From: Methanothrix sp.
GTDB taxonomy: Archaea; Halobacteriota; Methanosarcinia; Methanotrichales; Methanotrichaceae
Assembly (NCBI RefSeq): GCF_030055635.1
Contig: NZ_JASFYM010000001.1
Location: 1-64,000, forward strand
Direction of reading: 5' to 3'
Length of the DNA: 64,000 nucleotides
Shown: piece by piece, positions 21,047 through 48,107 of the stretch
Layout of the letters: each line of letters opens with the position of its first letter
Numbering within the stretch: position 1 is the first letter of the stretch
The notes under the pieces: generated by a model
Told to the model about the DNA's origin: nothing
The model's input: only the letters and a program-made list of their open reading frames with translations
Database searches by the model: none
Translations under genes and position numbers: made by a program

Positions 21047-21154
21047 GCTCATCCAGGCGAATTAGCGGAATAGTGATAATGGCGAAAAATGAAGCTTCAC
21101 CGGTACCGAAAATCCGGCTCAATCCAGCTTTCCGATAATTCGCCTGGATGAGCC
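21047..21154. mobile_element. MITE-like element, GGCTCAT family, copy E (near-perfect inverted ends, 9-bp direct repeats)
   Basis: The ends GCTCATCCAGGCGAATTA and the reverse complement of TAATTCGCCTGGATGAGC match over about 23 positions with one mismatch, enclosing some 60 bp. The unit is flanked on both sides by the identical 9-mer AAGAACAAA (21038-21046 and 21155-21163), a target-site duplication. The interior differs from the other copies, but the ends share GGCTCAT, CGAAT and CGGA with copies A, D and F. It lies in the 428-bp gap before the transglycosylase gene, in which the only other recognisable item is a TATA-like GCTTATAATG near 21348-21357. Confidence 0.85.
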
Positions 21155-21400: not shown

Positions 21401-22606
21401 ATGTCAGAGCATTTCTCCTTCGAGGTCCTGAAGCGGTCAAGGATGACGCGTGCGAGGCTTGGGGTGATCAGGACGCGCCGGGGGCATATAGAGACGCCCC
21501 AGTTCATTCCTGTGGCAACAGTGGCATCTGTCAGGGCTCTCGGATCAGATGATCTCAGGGCTCTTGGTGTGCAGGCGATATTCGCAAACACATATCATCT
21601 GCACCTGAGAACCGGAGAGGACCTCATCAGGAGACTGGGCGGGCTGCACAGGTTCATGTCGTTTGATGGCCCTATTTTCACAGACTCAGGCGGGTTCCAG
21701 GCTTTCTCACTGGGACTGGGAAGAGAGCACAACATAAGCAAGATTGGAAGCATATTCCCGCATGGAAGACGATCTGCAGAGCGGAGGGAGAACCTGACGA
21801 GGATCACGGATGAGGGGGTGGCCTTCAAGTCCCTCATCGATGGCGGATGGCATTTTCTCGACCCCAGGAGCGCTATGAGAATACAGAGCAGGCTCGGATC
21901 TGATATCGTAATGGCGTTCGATGAATGCACATCTCCCCTCTCCGATTATGATTACACCAGAGAGGCGATGGAGAGGACCCACCGCTGGGCTGTCCAGTCC
22001 TTGAGGCATCACGACAGGAGACAGGCGATATACGGCATCATACAGGGGGGATGGTTCGAGGACCTCCGCAGGGAGAGCGCGGATTTCATAAGGTCGCTGC
22101 CGTTCGACGGCATCGCGATCGGCGGCTCACTCGGAAACTGCAAGGCGGACATGCACCAGGTTCTTGACTGGGTGGTTCCCAGGCTGGATGAGCGGCCGAG
22201 ACATCTCCTTGGAATCGGGGAGATCCCGGATATCTTCGAGTGCGTCGAGAGGGGCGTCGATACATTCGACTGCGTCCATCCGACACGAATCGCACGCAGA
22301 GGCAACCTGTACATATCCCCGGCATCTGGAGGATGCCTGGAAAACAAGTTCAGGATAAGCATCAAGTCGTCGAGCTTCAAGGACGATAAAAGACCGGTGG
22401 ATCCGAGATGTGGATGTCCGACATGCAGGATGTACAGCAGGGCATATCTCAGGCACCTCTACATCTCGAACGAGCTCTCCTACTTCAGGGCTGCCACCGT
22501 ACATAACGTGTATTTCATGCTCAGGCTGATGGAGTCGATACGGAGATCGATAAGAGATGGGAGGTTCAGCGCGCTCAAGAGAAGGTGGATGAAGAGTGAG
22601 CCATGA
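21401..22606 (+). CDS. tgt: Bacterial-type queuine tRNA-ribosyltransferase (TGT)
   Basis: TGT swaps the wobble guanine of GUN-anticodon tRNAs for a queuine-type base. This 401-residue protein is of the bacterial/eukaryotic type, not the archaeal ArcTGT that modifies position 15: it lacks the PUA region and carries FTDSGGFQAFSLG (D95), MAFDECTSP, GIIQGG, GVDTFDCVHPTRIARRG (nucleophile D290) and zinc ligands C337, C339, C342 and H368. The pocket that reads GGLAVGE in preQ1-using bacterial enzymes reads GGSLGNC at 241-247, placing Gly245 at the position of Val233; eukaryotic queuine-using enzymes also have Gly there. The gene overlaps the transporter gene by 11 bases, suggesting a salvage operon. 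Confidence 0.92.
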   Translation: MSEHFSFEVLKRSRMTRARLGVIRTRRGHIETPQFIPVATVASVRALGSDDLRALGVQAIFANTYHLHLRTGEDLIRRLGGLHRFMSFDGPIFTDSGGFQAFSLGLGREHNISKIGSIFPHGRRSAERRENLTRITDEGVAFKSLIDGGWHFLDPRSAMRIQSRLGSDIVMAFDECTSPLSDYDYTREAMERTHRWAVQSLRHHDRRQAIYGIIQGGWFEDLRRESADFIRSLPFDGIAIGGSLGNCKADMHQVLDWVVPRLDERPRHLLGIGEIPDIFECVERGVDTFDCVHPTRIARRGNLYISPASGGCLENKFRISIKSSSFKDDKRPVDPRCGCPTCRMYSRAYLRHLYISNELSYFRAATVHNVYFMLRLMESIRRSIRDGRFSALKRRWMKSEP

Positions 22607-23381
22607 TGTTCGATCTGGCAGAGATCCAGTCGATGAAAAACTCCGTTTATCGCATGACCCTGCATGGAGACCATCTGGCCCCAGGATCCGCATCGATAAA
22701 ACACAGGCTGCGATTGTACTCTGCGGGCTTTACATATTCTTCTCGCTGGCCGGCAACATAGCCGCGACAAAGGTCACCTACTTCGGGAGGCTCGTCATGG
22801 ATGCCGGCTTCATATACTCCATGACCTTCACATGGAGGGACCTGATACACAAGCAGCTCGGTAAGAGAGCTGCCATCACCACGATCTGGCTGAGCGCGTT
22901 TATCAACCTTCTGGCAGCCCTGTACTTTCAGATAGTGGTTCTGATGCCAGCGGAGCCTGAATGGGCCGCGAATGGAGGGCAGGCTGCGTGGCAGTTCCTC
23001 TTCGGGATATTCGAGACATCCGGAGGCCCCTGGTGGCAGTCCATATTCTCCCTCCAGCTCAGGATAGTTCTCGGCTCAGTGATCACCATGGTCATAGCAG
23101 AGCTCATCGACACCCAGATATATCACCTCTGGGTCACCGGCTGGGGCAGGAACAGGCCACAGTGGGCCAGGGTCGCGGTGTCCAACGCGATATCAATACC
23201 TGTGGACAGCACCTTGTTCCCGCTTATAGCATTCACAGGAATAATCGGATTCGATGCGATGATCCAGATGTTCCAGACGAACATCGTTGTGAAGGCGATC
23301 GTCACCCTTCTATCGTTCTGGACGATATACCTGGTGCCGGAGAGGCCGATATTCGAGCAGCATGAGGCAGAACAGAATTGA
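22596..23381 (+). CDS. YhhQ-type queuosine-precursor transporter
   Basis: Integral membrane protein of the YhhQ/QPTR (COG1738, VUT) family, which imports queuosine precursors such as preQ0, preQ1 or queuine. After a 35-residue hydrophilic lead there are about six transmembrane helices. Family features include NIAATKVTYFGRLVMDAGFI, FTWRDLIHKQLGKRAA, VIAELIDTQIYH and VSNAISIPVDSTLF (the conserved D of the last motif). The start is GTG 22596 behind AGGTGGAT, inside the tgt 3' end, so translation is coupled. This partnership is the best evidence that the neighbouring TGT uses an imported base. Confidence 0.88.
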   Translation: MSHDVRSGRDPVDEKLRLSHDPAWRPSGPRIRIDKTQAAIVLCGLYIFFSLAGNIAATKVTYFGRLVMDAGFIYSMTFTWRDLIHKQLGKRAAITTIWLSAFINLLAALYFQIVVLMPAEPEWAANGGQAAWQFLFGIFETSGGPWWQSIFSLQLRIVLGSVITMVIAELIDTQIYHLWVTGWGRNRPQWARVAVSNAISIPVDSTLFPLIAFTGIIGFDAMIQMFQTNIVVKAIVTLLSFWTIYLVPERPIFEQHEAEQN

Positions 23382-40448: not shown

Positions 40449-40571
40449 GATCTCTACAGTGCGCTGATGGCTTATAAAATGATCTCCGACTGGTCATGAA
40501 TGAAATGCTGACGAGCGCATCTCATGGAAGCAGGCGCCGGGGTGGACAAAGCCTATATCCAGGCAGGTCGC

Positions 40572-42179
40572 ATGAGCAGCAGGAGCGTGGTTCAGATACG
40601 GGCTGTCGCCAGATGTGTGTTACTCATAGGATTGCTGATGATCTCCATGGCCTCAGGCCAGGAGATCGGCTGCAACGCGAGCGATGGCATCTGCAGGATC
40701 GTCTCCGCAGCGGAGATTTTGGGTAAGATCCGCGCCGGAGAGCCTGCGGTATACGAGAACGTCTTCGTCTCAGGAGATATCAACATCAGCAGGATCGGAA
40801 AGCCCCTGATCGCTCCGATAAAGATGGTGAACTCCACTATCAACGGCTCGCTGAAGATCGACGGCGCTGAGTTCAGGGGCCCGCTGAACCTCAGCGGCAC
40901 CGTTTTCTCCGGAGATGTTGCAGCGCGGGGTGCGAGCTTCGACTCAGACGTCTCTTTCGCGGGCGCGCATCTTCTGCGGAATGCTGAGTTTTCCCTGGCG
41001 AGGTTCGGGGGGACTGCGAACTTCGTAGGGACGAACTTTCACGGGCCGCTGAGCATGAGCTACGCCCAGTTCTCAAAGGTTGCGAGCTTCGAGGGGGCAA
41101 CGTTCTGGAGCCACGCGGACCTCTCGAACGCCCAGTTCATGGACGATACGAGCTTCGAGAGGGTTCACTTCCTGAGGAGCTCGAGCTTTGAGTTCTCGCG
41201 GTTCCACCAGCTAGTCTCGTTCTGGCGCTCTGTCTTTCACGGGGAGACGAGCTTTGCGAACAGCGAGTTCTCCGGAACTGCGAACTTCATGCGCGTGAGC
41301 TTCGATGAGAACGCTGTCTTCATGGGCTCCAGGTTCTCCCATGATGTCACATTCAGCGGGGCCCGGTTCTCGAGGGCAGCAGTATTCGGACTTGCAGCAT
41401 TCCAGGGGTTCTCTGACTTCTCGAGTTCTCTTTTCAGGTCGGTCGCATTCTTCGGGCTCGCAAAGCTCGAGGACAACACAAGGTTCGTGAACACGACGTT
41501 TGATGGGGATCTCGTGCTGACAAGCTCCCGGATATACTCGATGCAGCTTGAGAACGCGAGCTTCTCAGATTCATCGAGGATATACCTGAAAGAGGCTGAC
41601 TTCACCAGGATGCTCGCCCGCTGGTATCTTATAAAAAACCATCTCGTTTACGACAGCGCGGCCTATCTGGCTCTGGTCAAGAATTACAAGAACATGGAGT
41701 GGAGGGACGACGCGAACGACTGCTACTACCAGTACAGGAGGATAAGCCAGGCGTCGGAGCCGTGGGGGCTGGAGAAGATGATCGATGTGGTATCATGGCT
41801 CTCCTGCGGTTACGGCGTGAGGCCGAGCTACACCATATTCTGGTCGATGTTCATGATCCTCCTCTTCGGTTTGGTGTACTGGATAGGCAACGGGATAAGG
41901 GAGATCGCGTGGGAGAACCTCTCAGATGAGGACGAACCGGAGAAAGCGGATGCTGAAGTCAGCGAGGATGAATCCGAGGGAGATCCTGAGATGCCGGCAG
42001 AGAGACGCATCTCTTTCCCGGATTCGTTATTCTTCAGCGCGATGTCGTTCACCGCGCAATCGCCTGCCTCGCTCTATCCTGTGGGTATCTACAAGCACGT
42101 GAGCATGATCGAGGGGATACTCGGATGGTTCCTGCTGGGGCTCTTCGTGGTCGTCCTGAGCGGGATGCTTATACGATAA
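40572..42179 (+). CDS. Pentapeptide-repeat protein fused to a pore-like two-helix module
   Basis: The 535-residue protein has a signal sequence (about 8-30), then many pentapeptide repeats with a central F/L every five residues (about 75-330; FVGTNFHGPLSMSYAQF, FEGATFWSHADLSNAQF), predicted to form a right-handed quadrilateral beta helix outside the cell. A transmembrane helix (about 420-440), an acidic 40-residue loop, and a C-terminal module (482-535) follow. The last part, DSLFFSAMSFTAQSPASLYP and a helix GILGWFLLGLFVVVLSGML, aligns with the pore helix-filter-TM2 of Ion_trans_2 channels, but the TVGYGD filter is absent. ATG 40572 follows AGGCAGG. Function unknown. Confidence 0.75.
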   Translation: MSSRSVVQIRAVARCVLLIGLLMISMASGQEIGCNASDGICRIVSAAEILGKIRAGEPAVYENVFVSGDINISRIGKPLIAPIKMVNSTINGSLKIDGAEFRGPLNLSGTVFSGDVAARGASFDSDVSFAGAHLLRNAEFSLARFGGTANFVGTNFHGPLSMSYAQFSKVASFEGATFWSHADLSNAQFMDDTSFERVHFLRSSSFEFSRFHQLVSFWRSVFHGETSFANSEFSGTANFMRVSFDENAVFMGSRFSHDVTFSGARFSRAAVFGLAAFQGFSDFSSSLFRSVAFFGLAKLEDNTRFVNTTFDGDLVLTSSRIYSMQLENASFSDSSRIYLKEADFTRMLARWYLIKNHLVYDSAAYLALVKNYKNMEWRDDANDCYYQYRRISQASEPWGLEKMIDVVSWLSCGYGVRPSYTIFWSMFMILLFGLVYWIGNGIREIAWENLSDEDEPEKADAEVSEDESEGDPEMPAERRISFPDSLFFSAMSFTAQSPASLYPVGIYKHVSMIEGILGWFLLGLFVVVLSGMLIR

Positions 42180-42353: not shown

Positions 42354-45300
42354 ATGTACAATAAAGCAAAGCATGTGTGCTCTGCACTAGTAAAACTGTG
42401 TTTGATATCTTTGATCATGATAGTCGTAACCGCAAATGGCGCTACAGCGCTTACATTAGACAGTTCTTCTGGTGTATGGACCAGCGTTACTGGCGGAAGT
42501 GGTGTAACTGGAGTGAATACAAATGAGGTGAGGTGGGGAACACCTGCTGGTTCTCAGAAAAGCGGGCTCCGTTTCGATGGAGTCGCATCAAGTCAGAATA
42601 TAGAAACCGGCAAGGACTTTTGTTTAGGTAAGCTAACGCACTTCAATTACCCTGTATATTCTGGAACTGCAGCATCAGGAGCTAAATTAAAGATCACACT
42701 TCATTTTTCCAATCCATCCATCACAGCTGATTTTTATTATGATCTGACAATTGATGAAACACCCAACAGCGGTACATGCACTCCAAATCGCCCGAATACC
42801 TGTGCGTATAAACCATGCGAAACTCCATGCCCAGACAAAGTGGCTTGGTCAAATACACTTTCAGCTCAGTCATTTTTCGTCAATGGTGAGGAGTATATCG
42901 TTCAGATAGCCGGATTTGTAGATGAATGTCCTGGTGGAACACCGGTATCTGATTTTATAACACAGGAGGGAAAGAAAAACGAGGCATATCTCGTCGGCAA
43001 GGTTCTTCTAAAAAGACCTTCAATAACGGTGGTCAAGACAGCATACATTGATGGGAGTTGTCCTGGCAGTGATCCCGTTGATGCGGAGATAGGCGACACA
43101 GTGACCTACTGTTACGAGGTCAAGAACACGGGTGACGTCACATTAACGGGTGTGACGCTAAGTGACGACAGGTACGGGAGCATAACGCTCGATAAGACCA
43201 CGCTCTCACCAGGCGAGAGCGCTTATGGTACTGCGACTCATAAGATAACAGAATCCGATTATCCATCGCTGGTTAACACAGCGACCGCGACAGGCACACC
43301 ACCCACAGGAACCCCGATAACCGATACCGATGACTGTAAGGTTAACATCCAGGTCTCGCCCGGTATCGAGGTGGTCAAGACAGCATACATTGATGGGAGT
43401 TGTCCTGGCAGTGATCCCGTTGATGCGGAGATAGGCGACACAGTGACCTACTGTTACGAGGTCAAGAACACGGGTGACGTCACATTAACGGGTGTGACGC
43501 TAAGTGACGACAGGTACGGGAGCATAACGCTCGATAAGACCACGCTCTCACCAGGCGAGAGCGCTTATGGTACTGCGACTCATAAGATAACAGAATCCGA
43601 TTATCCATCGCTGGTTAACACAGCGACCGCGACAGGCACACCACCCACAGGAACCCCGATAACCGATACCGATGACTGTACAGTTAAAGTTGAGGCAGGT
43701 CATATATTAGTCGACAAGGTCACCGACCCAGCCGGCTCCACGGATACCTTCGAGTTCACAGGATCCTGGAGCGGAGGCACGACATTCTCTCTGAAAGACA
43801 GCGATACGCCTTACGATAGCGGTTATCTGGCACCAGGCGAGTACACGGTGACCGAGAGTGTGCCTGAAGGATGGGTGCTGAGCAGCATAACCATCGAGGG
43901 CGATACTGATGGCGGCTCCACCACATCAGGCTCCACCGCGACGATCGATCTCGATGCTGGCGAGACGATCAAAGTTACATTCACCAACACCCTCCAGACG
44001 GGCGGCCAGGGCAAGCTCGACGTCAGCGGATACAAGTTCGACGATCAGAACGCGAATGGAGCGTGGGATACAGGAGAGCCTGGAATCGAGGGCTGGACGA
44101 TCTATCTCTCGGATGGCACCACACCGATCTCAACAACAACCGGAATCGATGGCAAATACACCTTCACGAACCTGCCTGCAGGTACCTACACTATAACAGA
44201 GGAGGAGAGGGATGGATGGACGAGGACCTTCCCTGCAGCTCCTGGAAGCTATGAGATTGTGTTTGACGGAGAGGAGGACAAGAGCGTATCGGACCTGAAC
44301 TTCGGGAACGCCCAGGTCCTCCAGCCGCAGGCCAGGCTTGCGATAGATGTCAGCCCACATGATCCATGCAGCAATACTCCCGTGGTCGTCACAGTTAGCT
44401 GTCAGAACGTGCAGGGCGATCTCTGCGGCAGCATTGCCAGCATGACTCTGTACTACGAGTCGTCCTCGGTGGAGATGACGAAGGGCCCGAACGGCAAATG
44501 GACCGCGACGATAGCCGGCCAGCCTGCAGGCACCACACTGAGCGTTTATGCCGTGCCGAAGGACTCTCAGGGCAACTTCATAGCGGATATCGGGACGACT
44601 GCGACCGAGAAGATCACATGGATAAACTGCGCTATCGACATCGAGAAGACAGCTGATACGACTGAGGTGAATCCAGGAGACACCATCACATACACCCTCA
44701 CGGTGAGGAACACCGGCAGCTCAACTATAAATGACGTCACCGTGGTCGACACGCTCCCGCCCGGGACGCTGTACGTATCCGCGAATCCAGCACCGTCAGG
44801 CGTCAGCGGCAGTGTCATCACGTGGAACCTGGGCGCTCTTGATCCAGGTGCATCTGTTGTCATCACGCTGACCGCCACGGTCGAGAGCGATGTCTGCGAG
44901 CGCCAGAGCTTCACGCCATCGGATGAGCAGAACCAGAAGCGCGGCGCTGCTCCACCTGCGACAGGAGAGAATCGGCTCACCATAATGGCAGCATCTCCAG
45001 TCGACCAGGAGCTGGTCGATTCACTGTACAGAAACATGACGAGGCTCGAGGCTAAGCTGAACTACGTCAGGAAGTACAGGGACACATTCGATAAGGCGAA
45101 CGCCACACTGATCGTGAGCAATGTCACACTGAACGGCTCTGTTTACACACTGATGAACTACACCAGCACCACCACGGGAGACGTTCTCACAGAGGCGTAC
45201 AATTCCTCGGGTGCTCTCGCATGGTCCCTCCTGGTGAGACCACAGAAGTACGACTCGCTCCGCACAGAGTACGTCAACGGCAGGGTCGTCTCCGAGAACT

Positions 45301-48107
45301 ACATCACGAGAGAGCCCTGGGAGGGGCTGCTCGTCGAGTACGATAAACCGTATCCAGGGTACACGAACCTCACGGTCACCTACTACCCGACTGGTGACAC
45401 GCTTGTTGTCATCAGGGACCAGTACGGCAACGTTGTGAGCAAGGAGTACAAGAAGCTGCCAGGAGTGCCGCCCGTGCCTCTGGAGCTCGAGAACTGCGCC
45501 ACGGTTACGGGCAGAATAGGCGAGATCGAGGTGAGCGACAGCTCCTGCGTTACTGTCAAGGTGATATGCCCATTACCGCTGCAGGGGAAGCTCACCCTGG
45601 CTAAGAGGCCCTCTGTCGAGGTCGCATCTGTCGGCCAGACGATCACCTACACGTACACAATCACAAACGGCGGAGAGACGACTGTCAGCAACATCTACGT
45701 AGATGACGATATGCTCGGCAGGATCAACACAGATCCGATAACCCTTGAACCTGGAGAGACCACTGAGATCACCGCGACGTATGTTGTGAAACCAACGGAT
45801 GCATCTCCGATAAAGAACGTCGCCATAGCAATAGGCCAGGATCCGAACGGCGATGATGTGGCCTCTGATCCAGCCGAGGCTGAGGTCGTGATCGCTGGGA
45901 AGGTTCTCTTCAACAAGACCGCGGAGCCCAAGGTCGTAAAGCCAGGAGACACGATAACTTACACGATAAGGTACCAGAACCTCGAGGGAGGGAGACTGTA
46001 CGACGTCTACATCGTGGACCACTACCCGAACGAGATATACTTCATAAGCGCGACACCTGCTCCGACAAGCGGGAACAACGTGTGGCACATAGGCGATCTC
46101 GATCCTGGCGCATCTGGAGAGATAGTGATAGTCGTGGGCGTCGCCCAGGAGCTGGGCAACATGAGCTTCAGCATGGACCAGAGCGTGAGCGGCTCAGGCT
46201 ACGTCAATGTGTACAACAACCTCTGCACAACCCCGCCGAGGATAGTGAACAGGGCTGAGATGTCCTACAGGCTCACCGAGAACGGAGAGAGCACAAGAGC
46301 CTCTGCAGCCGCAGAGGTCCAGCTCGGACCGCCGGCGACCTGCGCCAGGATCAAGGAGCACGGGAGCGGCTCATACGAGACCGAGGATTTTGTGAGGTAC
46401 GAGCGCGGGAACCGGACGATTACCTGGAACAAGAGCCTGTCAGCGACGCACTACCCGACATCGTTCTCCCTCCCGAGAGACAGAAACGTGAACTACACGA
46501 CGCTCTGGGTGGAGAAGCAGAAGGCTAAGAACTACGCGACCGATGCCTCATTCAGCGAGGAGTACACCTATGCCAGGAGCATAAAGCGCGAGAGCTCCCT
46601 CCAGATGGACGAGAACGGCTCCAGGCTGATGGTGGACACAGAGTTCACAGGCATGGGGCATGTCGGGATACTCAAGGCCAGGGAGAGCAACAGGACGAAG
46701 AACGCGATGTACTGGGGCGGAGCTGTTTACGAGAGCAGAGAGGACTATGTGGGGAGCTTCAGTTTGTATCAGAAGATCGACGAGTACGGAGAGCACCTGC
46801 GCTCCGAGAGCGAGGTGAGCGGCAGAGGCTTCGCAGCCGTGGATAAGCGCCTCGGATCCGCGCAGCGCTCCTACGAATCCGGCGCAGGCAGCTACGAGAG
46901 CTCCCACCTCATGGACACGCTGAGCAGCTACATGCACAAGGATATCAGCCTCAACCACGCGCCTGCGAACTACACCTACTCGAGGGGCATGGCGGTGAAC
47001 TACACCGGCAGGTGGTATGAGGGAATGTGGTCCAAGACGGACAGGAGCCTGATCAGCGAGAGCTTCTCCGCGCTGAACCGCCTCGAGAAGGAGACGTACG
47101 CGAGGGGCCTGAACGAGATGGAGACTGAGGCTGAGTTCTCCGGAAAGGCTGACTTCAGGGTCCTCTACCAGGATCTCAGCGGCAGAGAGGGAAGGACCAT
47201 TGACCTCGTCGATCAGTACATCGGAGATTACAGGGTGAACCGCAAGGTCTCGATGACAGGTGTGTCGAGATACAGCTACCCGCACATATCCGTTAGAAAG
47301 GAGGCCTCTGTGGACCTGGCGAACAGCACATACGCTGATTACAGGATCATCGTCGAGAACGACGGCAACGTCAATCTCGGGCCTGTGTACATCCTCGACA
47401 TTTTCCCGCCCGGCACAGAGTACGTCGGATCATCTGCAAGACCGAGCGAGCTGACGTCAGAGTACGCTAACTGGACGCTCCTGCATCTCGGCATAGGAGA
47501 CACTGCCACAATCTCGCTGACGCTCAACATCACCGAGGAGGTATCGAACCTGGTCAACAGGGTGATCGTCTCTGGAGTCCATGACGGTGAATGGGTCACG
47601 GCGAGAAACTTCTCCTCGACGAGGATAGACTGGCTCGAGTGCTGCCCATCTGAGATAATCGCAACGAAGACCGCGAGAGTGCACAACGACACTGTGAGCT
47701 ACAGGATCTCGCTGAGAAACAGAGCGAACTACACGATGGTCGCGTTCGTCATCGATTACATCCCATCAGATATGCAGCTGATCAACTACTCGCTCACACC
47801 ATCGCAGATAAGGGAGAACAGGATCGAGTGGGCGGTGCTCGATCTGAGGCCCGGGAAGAGGATCGACATCGATTACAACATGAAAGCGCTCAGGAGCGGC
47901 ACGTTCACCAACAGGGCCAGGGTGGAGGCCTACCCGATCGATGGGCCTGGAGCGGTGGGGGCAGATCTTGCGGCCAGAGCATACGTCGGAGTCGAGATAA
48001 AGGAGCCGGAGCGGGAGGGCTGGACAGTGCCGAAGTGCATGAGCCTCAACTGCACCGAGTCGTACAGGGACGACTGGATGTCCTGCACCACATGCGAACG
48101 GGAGTAG
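42354..48107 (+). CDS. Giant multidomain secreted surface protein (1917 residues)
   Basis: A likely adhesin or envelope component. A signal peptide (about 1-33) precedes an anchor-like domain with GKLTHFNYPV (choice-of-anchor K type, to about 220). Two identical DUF11-type repeats of 114 residues (225-338, 339-443; ITVVKTAYIDGSCPG, EVKNTGDVTL) follow. Then come a prealbumin-like domain (about 446-545), an SdrD-B-like domain (551-655, GYKFDDQNANGAWDTGEPG), and DUF11 domains at about 757-850, 1076-1180, 1182-1275, 1643-1750 and 1765-1880, with a beta-rich region between. The C-terminus (CMSLNCTESY...SCTTC) has no transmembrane helix or sorting motif. The first 220 codons are AT-rich; the rest is GC-richer, suggesting a mosaic gene. 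Confidence 0.88.
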   Translation: MYNKAKHVCSALVKLCLISLIMIVVTANGATALTLDSSSGVWTSVTGGSGVTGVNTNEVRWGTPAGSQKSGLRFDGVASSQNIETGKDFCLGKLTHFNYPVYSGTAASGAKLKITLHFSNPSITADFYYDLTIDETPNSGTCTPNRPNTCAYKPCETPCPDKVAWSNTLSAQSFFVNGEEYIVQIAGFVDECPGGTPVSDFITQEGKKNEAYLVGKVLLKRPSITVVKTAYIDGSCPGSDPVDAEIGDTVTYCYEVKNTGDVTLTGVTLSDDRYGSITLDKTTLSPGESAYGTATHKITESDYPSLVNTATATGTPPTGTPITDTDDCKVNIQVSPGIEVVKTAYIDGSCPGSDPVDAEIGDTVTYCYEVKNTGDVTLTGVTLSDDRYGSITLDKTTLSPGESAYGTATHKITESDYPSLVNTATATGTPPTGTPITDTDDCTVKVEAGHILVDKVTDPAGSTDTFEFTGSWSGGTTFSLKDSDTPYDSGYLAPGEYTVTESVPEGWVLSSITIEGDTDGGSTTSGSTATIDLDAGETIKVTFTNTLQTGGQGKLDVSGYKFDDQNANGAWDTGEPGIEGWTIYLSDGTTPISTTTGIDGKYTFTNLPAGTYTITEEERDGWTRTFPAAPGSYEIVFDGEEDKSVSDLNFGNAQVLQPQARLAIDVSPHDPCSNTPVVVTVSCQNVQGDLCGSIASMTLYYESSSVEMTKGPNGKWTATIAGQPAGTTLSVYAVPKDSQGNFIADIGTTATEKITWINCAIDIEKTADTTEVNPGDTITYTLTVRNTGSSTINDVTVVDTLPPGTLYVSANPAPSGVSGSVITWNLGALDPGASVVITLTATVESDVCERQSFTPSDEQNQKRGAAPPATGENRLTIMAASPVDQELVDSLYRNMTRLEAKLNYVRKYRDTFDKANATLIVSNVTLNGSVYTLMNYTSTTTGDVLTEAYNSSGALAWSLLVRPQKYDSLRTEYVNGRVVSENYITREPWEGLLVEYDKPYPGYTNLTVTYYPTGDTLVVIRDQYGNVVSKEYKKLPGVPPVPLELENCATVTGRIGEIEVSDSSCVTVKVICPLPLQGKLTLAKRPSVEVASVGQTITYTYTITNGGETTVSNIYVDDDMLGRINTDPITLEPGETTEITATYVVKPTDASPIKNVAIAIGQDPNGDDVASDPAEAEVVIAGKVLFNKTAEPKVVKPGDTITYTIRYQNLEGGRLYDVYIVDHYPNEIYFISATPAPTSGNNVWHIGDLDPGASGEIVIVVGVAQELGNMSFSMDQSVSGSGYVNVYNNLCTTPPRIVNRAEMSYRLTENGESTRASAAAEVQLGPPATCARIKEHGSGSYETEDFVRYERGNRTITWNKSLSATHYPTSFSLPRDRNVNYTTLWVEKQKAKNYATDASFSEEYTYARSIKRESSLQMDENGSRLMVDTEFTGMGHVGILKARESNRTKNAMYWGGAVYESREDYVGSFSLYQKIDEYGEHLRSESEVSGRGFAAVDKRLGSAQRSYESGAGSYESSHLMDTLSSYMHKDISLNHAPANYTYSRGMAVNYTGRWYEGMWSKTDRSLISESFSALNRLEKETYARGLNEMETEAEFSGKADFRVLYQDLSGREGRTIDLVDQYIGDYRVNRKVSMTGVSRYSYPHISVRKEASVDLANSTYADYRIIVENDGNVNLGPVYILDIFPPGTEYVGSSARPSELTSEYANWTLLHLGIGDTATISLTLNITEEVSNLVNRVIVSGVHDGEWVTARNFSSTRIDWLECCPSEIIATKTARVHNDTVSYRISLRNRANYTMVAFVIDYIPSDMQLINYSLTPSQIRENRIEWAVLDLRPGKRIDIDYNMKALRSGTFTNRARVEAYPIDGPGAVGADLAARAYVGVEIKEPEREGWTVPKCMSLNCTESYRDDWMSCTTCERE
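43028..43680 (+). repeat. Perfect 311-bp direct repeat inside the surface-protein gene
   Basis: Bases 43028-43338 and 43370-43680 appear identical, with a period of 342 bp (114 codons). They encode two copies of the DUF11-type domain. Perfect identity at synonymous positions implies a very recent duplication or ongoing gene conversion; a collapsed or expanded repeat in the assembly is also possible. Confidence 0.9.

Follow-up and report, generated by a model that had tools for sequence, protein, structure and literature searches.

A bacterial-type tRNA-guanine transglycosylase and a Vut_1/QPTR transporter in Methanothrix form a probable queuine-salvage pair

The closest described precedent for a transglycosylase-transporter pair acting on queuine is that of Chlamydia trachomatis, in which a tRNA-guanine transglycosylase (TGT) and a QPTR-family transporter occur without QueA, QueG and QueH, and direct use of queuine is predicted (PMC11130926, PMC11570991). 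Eukaryotic QTRT1 is likewise predicted to insert queuine directly, without QueA. The same gene content does not always indicate the same substrate, as Bartonella encodes a TGT and a QPTR transporter without QueA and can still prefer preQ1 (PMC11570991). Among archaea, TGTs accompanied by QueA and QueH-like proteins have been reported in DPANN and in some Methanosarcinales (PMC8204110); thus, a bacterial TGT in an archaeon is not new, and the premise of our preliminary description that archaea normally lack such enzymes was too strong. Another branch of the same superfamily, the archaeosine enzyme ArcTGT (TgtA), also exchanges a 7-deazaguanine into tRNA. For archaeal COG1738 proteins, salvage of preQ0 has been suggested (PMC5372724).

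We analyzed a window of 64,000 nucleotides from the genome of Methanothrix sp. (G000; 1.76 Mb, completeness 99.75%), which contains a TGT gene and a transporter gene overlapping by 11 nt. The features of this locus are as follows.

21401..22606, + strand: bacterial-type tRNA-guanine transglycosylase (bTGT), 401 aa, with a short pocket loop GGSLGNCK (TIGR00430, PF01702, AlphaFold model, orthologues in 49 genomes of the phylum)
21683..21685, + strand: codon of Asp95, at the general acid/base position of TGTs (no variation among the 50 sequences of alignment A2)
22121..22147, + strand: GGSLGNCKA at residues 241-249, the loop of the substrate pocket (aligned with phmmer, MAFFT and hhalign)
22268..22270, + strand: codon of Asp290, the catalytic nucleophile (invariant in A2)
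22409..22504, + strand: zinc-site residues C337, C339, C342 and H368 (the three cysteines nearly invariant, H368 invariant in A2)
22596..23381, + strand: transporter of the Vut_1/QPTR (YhhQ) family, GTG start, 261 aa (PF02592, TIGR00697; adjoins the TGT in 15/15 TGT-bearing genomes of families f1 and f9)

In profile searches, the bTGT scored 467 bits against TIGR00430 (curated cut-off 307) and 416 bits against PF01702, whereas the archaeosine TgtA model TIGR00432 gave 114 bits (cut-off 350) and the model of the DNA-modifying DpdA gave 24 bits (cut-off 200). These scores rule out a misannotated ArcTGT or DpdA. The AlphaFold model of the protein reached a pLDDT of 91.7 with the 50-sequence alignment (34 from the single sequence), and its nearest solved fold according to Foldseek is the Zymomonas TGT (TM 0.87/0.93). 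The fold, the catalytic pair of aspartates and the zinc-binding CxCxxC/H residues place the enzyme among the bacterial-type TGTs, and the preliminary description had correctly assigned it to the bacterial/eukaryotic type and picked out its catalytic and zinc residues, which are conserved in the family. Its identification of an overlapping YhhQ-family transporter also held, with scores of 108 bits against PF02592 (cut-off 27.2) and 62.8 bits against TIGR00697 (cut-off 50.95); a sequence search of the PDB with the transporter returned no meaningful match.

Both genes evolve under purifying selection within the genus (dN/dS of about 0.03-0.04 for the TGT and 0.1-0.16 for the transporter), which rules out a pair of pseudogenes. 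Bacterial contamination is rejected because the pair is flanked by archaeal genes (SerRS with a tRNA_bind_4 domain, DUF2240, DUF373), the TGT is present in all five same-genus genomes (5/5), and the neighborhood is syntenic within the genus. Elsewhere in the window, upstream of the TGT gene at 21047-21153, lies an inverted repeat whose 24-nt arms are 96% complementary and enclose a spacer of 59 nt; it was not found in the other loci compared. At 42354-48107 there is a 1917-aa open reading frame with DUF7507, DUF11 and SdrD_B repeats, probably encoding a surface protein, adjoined by a pentapeptide-repeat open reading frame at 40524-42179.

Methanothrix possesses its own ArcTGT (C1:122184-123467, 620 bits), so archaeosine has a dedicated enzyme distinct from the bTGT, as well as QueC (C20:22958, above the cut-off). 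Searches of the same genome found none of QueA, QueH, QueG and QueF; therefore, preQ1 could not be converted to queuosine by known enzymes. The genome thus encodes a TGT without QueA, QueG or QueH, the gene content expected of a queuine-inserting TGT and the one seen in C. trachomatis, from which Methanothrix differs in being an archaeon that is not intracellular and carries its own ArcTGT and QueC. The anticodon loops of tRNA-Asn, tRNA-Asp and tRNA-His contain CUGU (U33-G34-U35), which fits TGT recognition; tRNA-Tyr was not recovered from this genome by ARAGORN.

The pocket of the enzyme is altered in a way that differs from the first reading of it. Both HMMER and profile-profile alignment place GG-SLGNCK against GGLSVGEPK, the Methanothrix loop being one residue shorter than that of preQ1-type enzymes, so that Leu244 falls at position 233, Gly245 at 234, Asn246 at 235 and Cys247 at 236. 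The preliminary description had equated Gly245 with Val233 and taken a glycine there as a sign of queuine-using TGTs; the alignment does not sustain either point, since Gly245 corresponds to Gly234 and position 233 is occupied by Leu244. It had also proposed that Cys247 replaces Glu235. The loss of Glu235 stands whichever register applies, although the residue now aligned with it is Asn246, and the Cys247 position is occupied by Ser in most relatives. Cys158 is retained as Cys176, whereas eukaryotic TGT has Val at this position (PMC3660597). Human TGT (GGLSGGE) keeps both the loop length and the Glu, and the Methanothrix loop is also shorter than that of the Zymomonas enzyme. The published motif of queuine-using TGTs, GG[LS][AS]G, which involves replacement of Val233 by Gly and is called typical rather than universal (PMC11570991), is matched only loosely by GGSLG, one residue being deleted and the best alignment putting Leu at 233. 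The pocket class of Methanothrix differs from the queuine motif described so far, and this is among the points that separate it from the Chlamydia system. Moreover, V233G by itself is insufficient for making a queuine enzyme (PMC3660597). The residues alone are therefore insufficient to prove the use of queuine.

The loss of Glu235, a residue documented to function in preQ1 binding (PMC3660597), bears on two alternative substrates. According to the first, the bTGT would use preQ0, either made by the cell for archaeosine or imported, and leave preQ0 or a derivative at G34, while the transporter would top up preQ0 for both TGTs. The missing Glu fits this scheme, preQ0 should be available given QueC and ArcTGT, and the suggested preQ0 salvage by archaeal COG1738 proteins agrees with it; nevertheless, internal synthesis of preQ0 makes a dedicated transporter hard to explain, and we regard the use of preQ0 as unlikely in view of the co-occurrence of the two genes and the distribution of the short-loop class described below. 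The second alternative is that the pair salvages preQ1 and leaves an unfinished preQ1-34, by analogy with Bartonella, where TGT and QPTR without QueA are accompanied by trace preQ1 in tRNA (PMC11570991). The Bartonella TGT, however, retains the preQ1 pocket GGLAVG (PMC11570991), whereas the Methanothrix enzyme has lost Glu235, has a shortened loop and stands apart from the QueA-linked TGTs, which makes salvage of preQ1 highly unlikely.

Among the 393 genomes of the phylum that we surveyed, a bTGT above the cut-off was found in 56, plus one fragment (G268), and the proteins fall into two pocket classes. The GGLSIGE (preQ1-type) class occurs in eight genomes from three families (f3, f4, f5), all of which possess QueA (8/8) and QueH (8/8) and none Vut_1 (0/8). 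The GGSLG class occurs in 49 genomes, namely the Methanothrix family (f1), Archaeoglobi (f8: Archaeoglobus, Geoglobus), f9 and Mnemosynella (f29), where QueA and QueH are both absent (0/49 each) and Vut_1 is present in 48/49; a QueF-family match was obtained in four of these genomes. The Fisher tests on these distributions (run with 48 and 47) take genomes as independent, and since there are essentially two clades, their p-values overstate the association and the weight lies in its replication in a wider set. The eight GGLSIGE genomes are equivalent to the reported archaeal QueA-QueH-TGT sets (PMC8204110), which share with Methanothrix a bacterial-type TGT in archaea, including Methanosarcinales, and differ from it in the presence of QueA and QueH, the pocket and the lack of Vut_1. 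The archaea of f3, f4 and f5 (loci L048, L049, L059, L064 and L066) have QueA, QueH and a preQ1-type TGT but no QueF or Vut_1 match.

The TGT and Vut_1 genes lie within 4 kb of each other in 25 of the 49 GGSLG genomes. In all 15 TGT-bearing genomes of f1 and f9 they are on the same strand and overlap or are separated by at most 162 nt, and the comparison of gene neighborhoods proposed in the preliminary description showed that beyond the genus nearly all other neighbors change while the pair persists. Within f1, the bTGT and the pair-linked transporter are both present in 11 genomes, whereas three genomes lack the TGT; in two of these the sole transporter belongs to a different subfamily, and the third has none. 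Such co-occurrence (11/11) argues against the top-up of preQ0 for both TGTs considered above. Between f9, which belongs to another class, and the Methanothrix family, the pair shares 71-76% identity (L047, L057 and L062), which suggests that it was transferred as a unit. The TGT of Archaeoglobi is linked to a transporter from a different Vut_1 subfamily, in the opposite orientation where the genes are adjacent, and many of these genomes also carry an unlinked Vut_1 paralogue outside the linked clades in a transporter tree that is tentative because of its long branches.

The Methanothrix transporter shows only 21-29% identity to other QPTRs, including the bTGT-linked ones of Archaeoglobi, and its subfamily is likewise distant from that of the Chlamydia transporter. 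As a divergent member of Vut_1 it has an uncertain substrate, and it is the linkage to the TGT that suggests movement of a queuosine precursor. This divergence would suit an alternative in which the target of the bTGT is a different position in tRNA, a different RNA or a different 7-deazaguanine and the transporter moves something else, as would an extra segment of 25 residues after residue 105, which preQ1-type TGTs do not have. With the fold and the catalytic and zinc residues of a bTGT and such a weak match to the DpdA model, another target seems quite unlikely. Much longer inserts of tens of residues follow the FSLG motif in the TGTs of L060 (genome G376) and L086 (a Methanothrix metagenome-assembled genome).

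The relatives in the wider set include Woesearchaeota, Nanoarchaeota, a Thermoplasmatales metagenome-assembled genome, Patescibacteria, Holosporales and Micavibrio-like Alphaproteobacteria, along with a small number of other groups. In an unrooted tree of 70 TGT proteins with the pocket columns kept in, a branch with support of 100/98 separates the short-loop pockets (GGSLG, GGCLG, GGSF) from the rest; the tree contains no Chlamydia TGT, and the human TGT is a fragment on a long branch whose placement was disregarded. Clustering inside the ArcTGT clade, which the preliminary description had named as an outcome that would refute its interpretation, did not occur, in agreement with the low TgtA score. 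QueA was present in 3 of 23 genomes with a short-loop TGT as compared to 12 of 13 with a long-loop TGT, and two of the three exceptions possess a second, canonical TGT beside QueA. The third (L109) is a bacterium in which QueA accompanies a single TGT, of the short-loop type. The short-loop class is found in DPANN as well as in TGT-only bacteria; that bacteria of the latter kind, for example Holosporales, share it also speaks against preQ0 as the substrate. In two bacteria (L094 and L096; G395 and G397), a canonical TGT beside QueA coexists with a second short-loop TGT, as if these organisms both make queuosine and salvage queuine.

Comparative genomics thus favors import of queuine and formation of Q34 in the tRNAs for Asn, Asp, His and Tyr by the bTGT-Vut_1 pair, which is the most likely reading and, in our judgment, a quite probable one. 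It is supported because QueA, QueG and QueH are missing, the pair is conserved, ArcTGT is already present, and the enzyme clusters with those of TGT-only organisms. Counted against it are the off-motif GGSLG and shorter pocket loop, the divergent transporter, the preference for preQ1 that a TGT-QPTR pair without QueA can have in Bartonella (PMC11570991), the QueF-family match in four genomes, L109, and the tRNA-Tyr that ARAGORN did not recover. The import of a queuosine base and wobble modification proposed in the preliminary description hence remain the best-supported interpretation, although not on the residue argument from which they were drawn. According to the proposed mechanism, the Vut_1 transporter would import a queuosine base, most likely queuine from the surroundings that originates from bacterial release or tRNA turnover. 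The bTGT would then exchange G34 for queuine in tRNA-Asn, -Asp, -His and -Tyr, arriving at Q34 by a single step that needs none of QueA, QueG and QueH. Queuine rather than preQ0 or preQ1 as the substrate, the transport step and position 34 are all predictions of this model. The salvage unit would run beside, and independently of, the ArcTGT pathway that forms archaeosine at position 15.

For archaea, Methanothrix and Archaeoglobus included, our searches of the open literature yielded no report of queuine or queuine-only salvage, and the papers found assign queuosine to bacteria and eukaryotes, not archaea. To our knowledge, the textbook view is that archaea have archaeosine and lack queuosine. 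On the genomic evidence, it is moderately probable that Methanothrix, Archaeoglobus and several DPANN salvage queuine and carry wobble queuosine beside archaeosine at position 15, using a short-loop TGT class common to CPR and intracellular bacteria that would have spread as a TGT-transporter cassette. The claim is directly testable because cultured carriers appear to exist. If it is true, queuosine occurs in all three domains of life, and Methanothrix and Archaeoglobus, if they carry Q34, would combine two 7-deazaguanine modifications in one tRNA pool, introduced by two TGTs with distinct origins. In that case queuine would also be a nutrient common to bacteria and methanogens, which would be relevant to methane-producing consortia.
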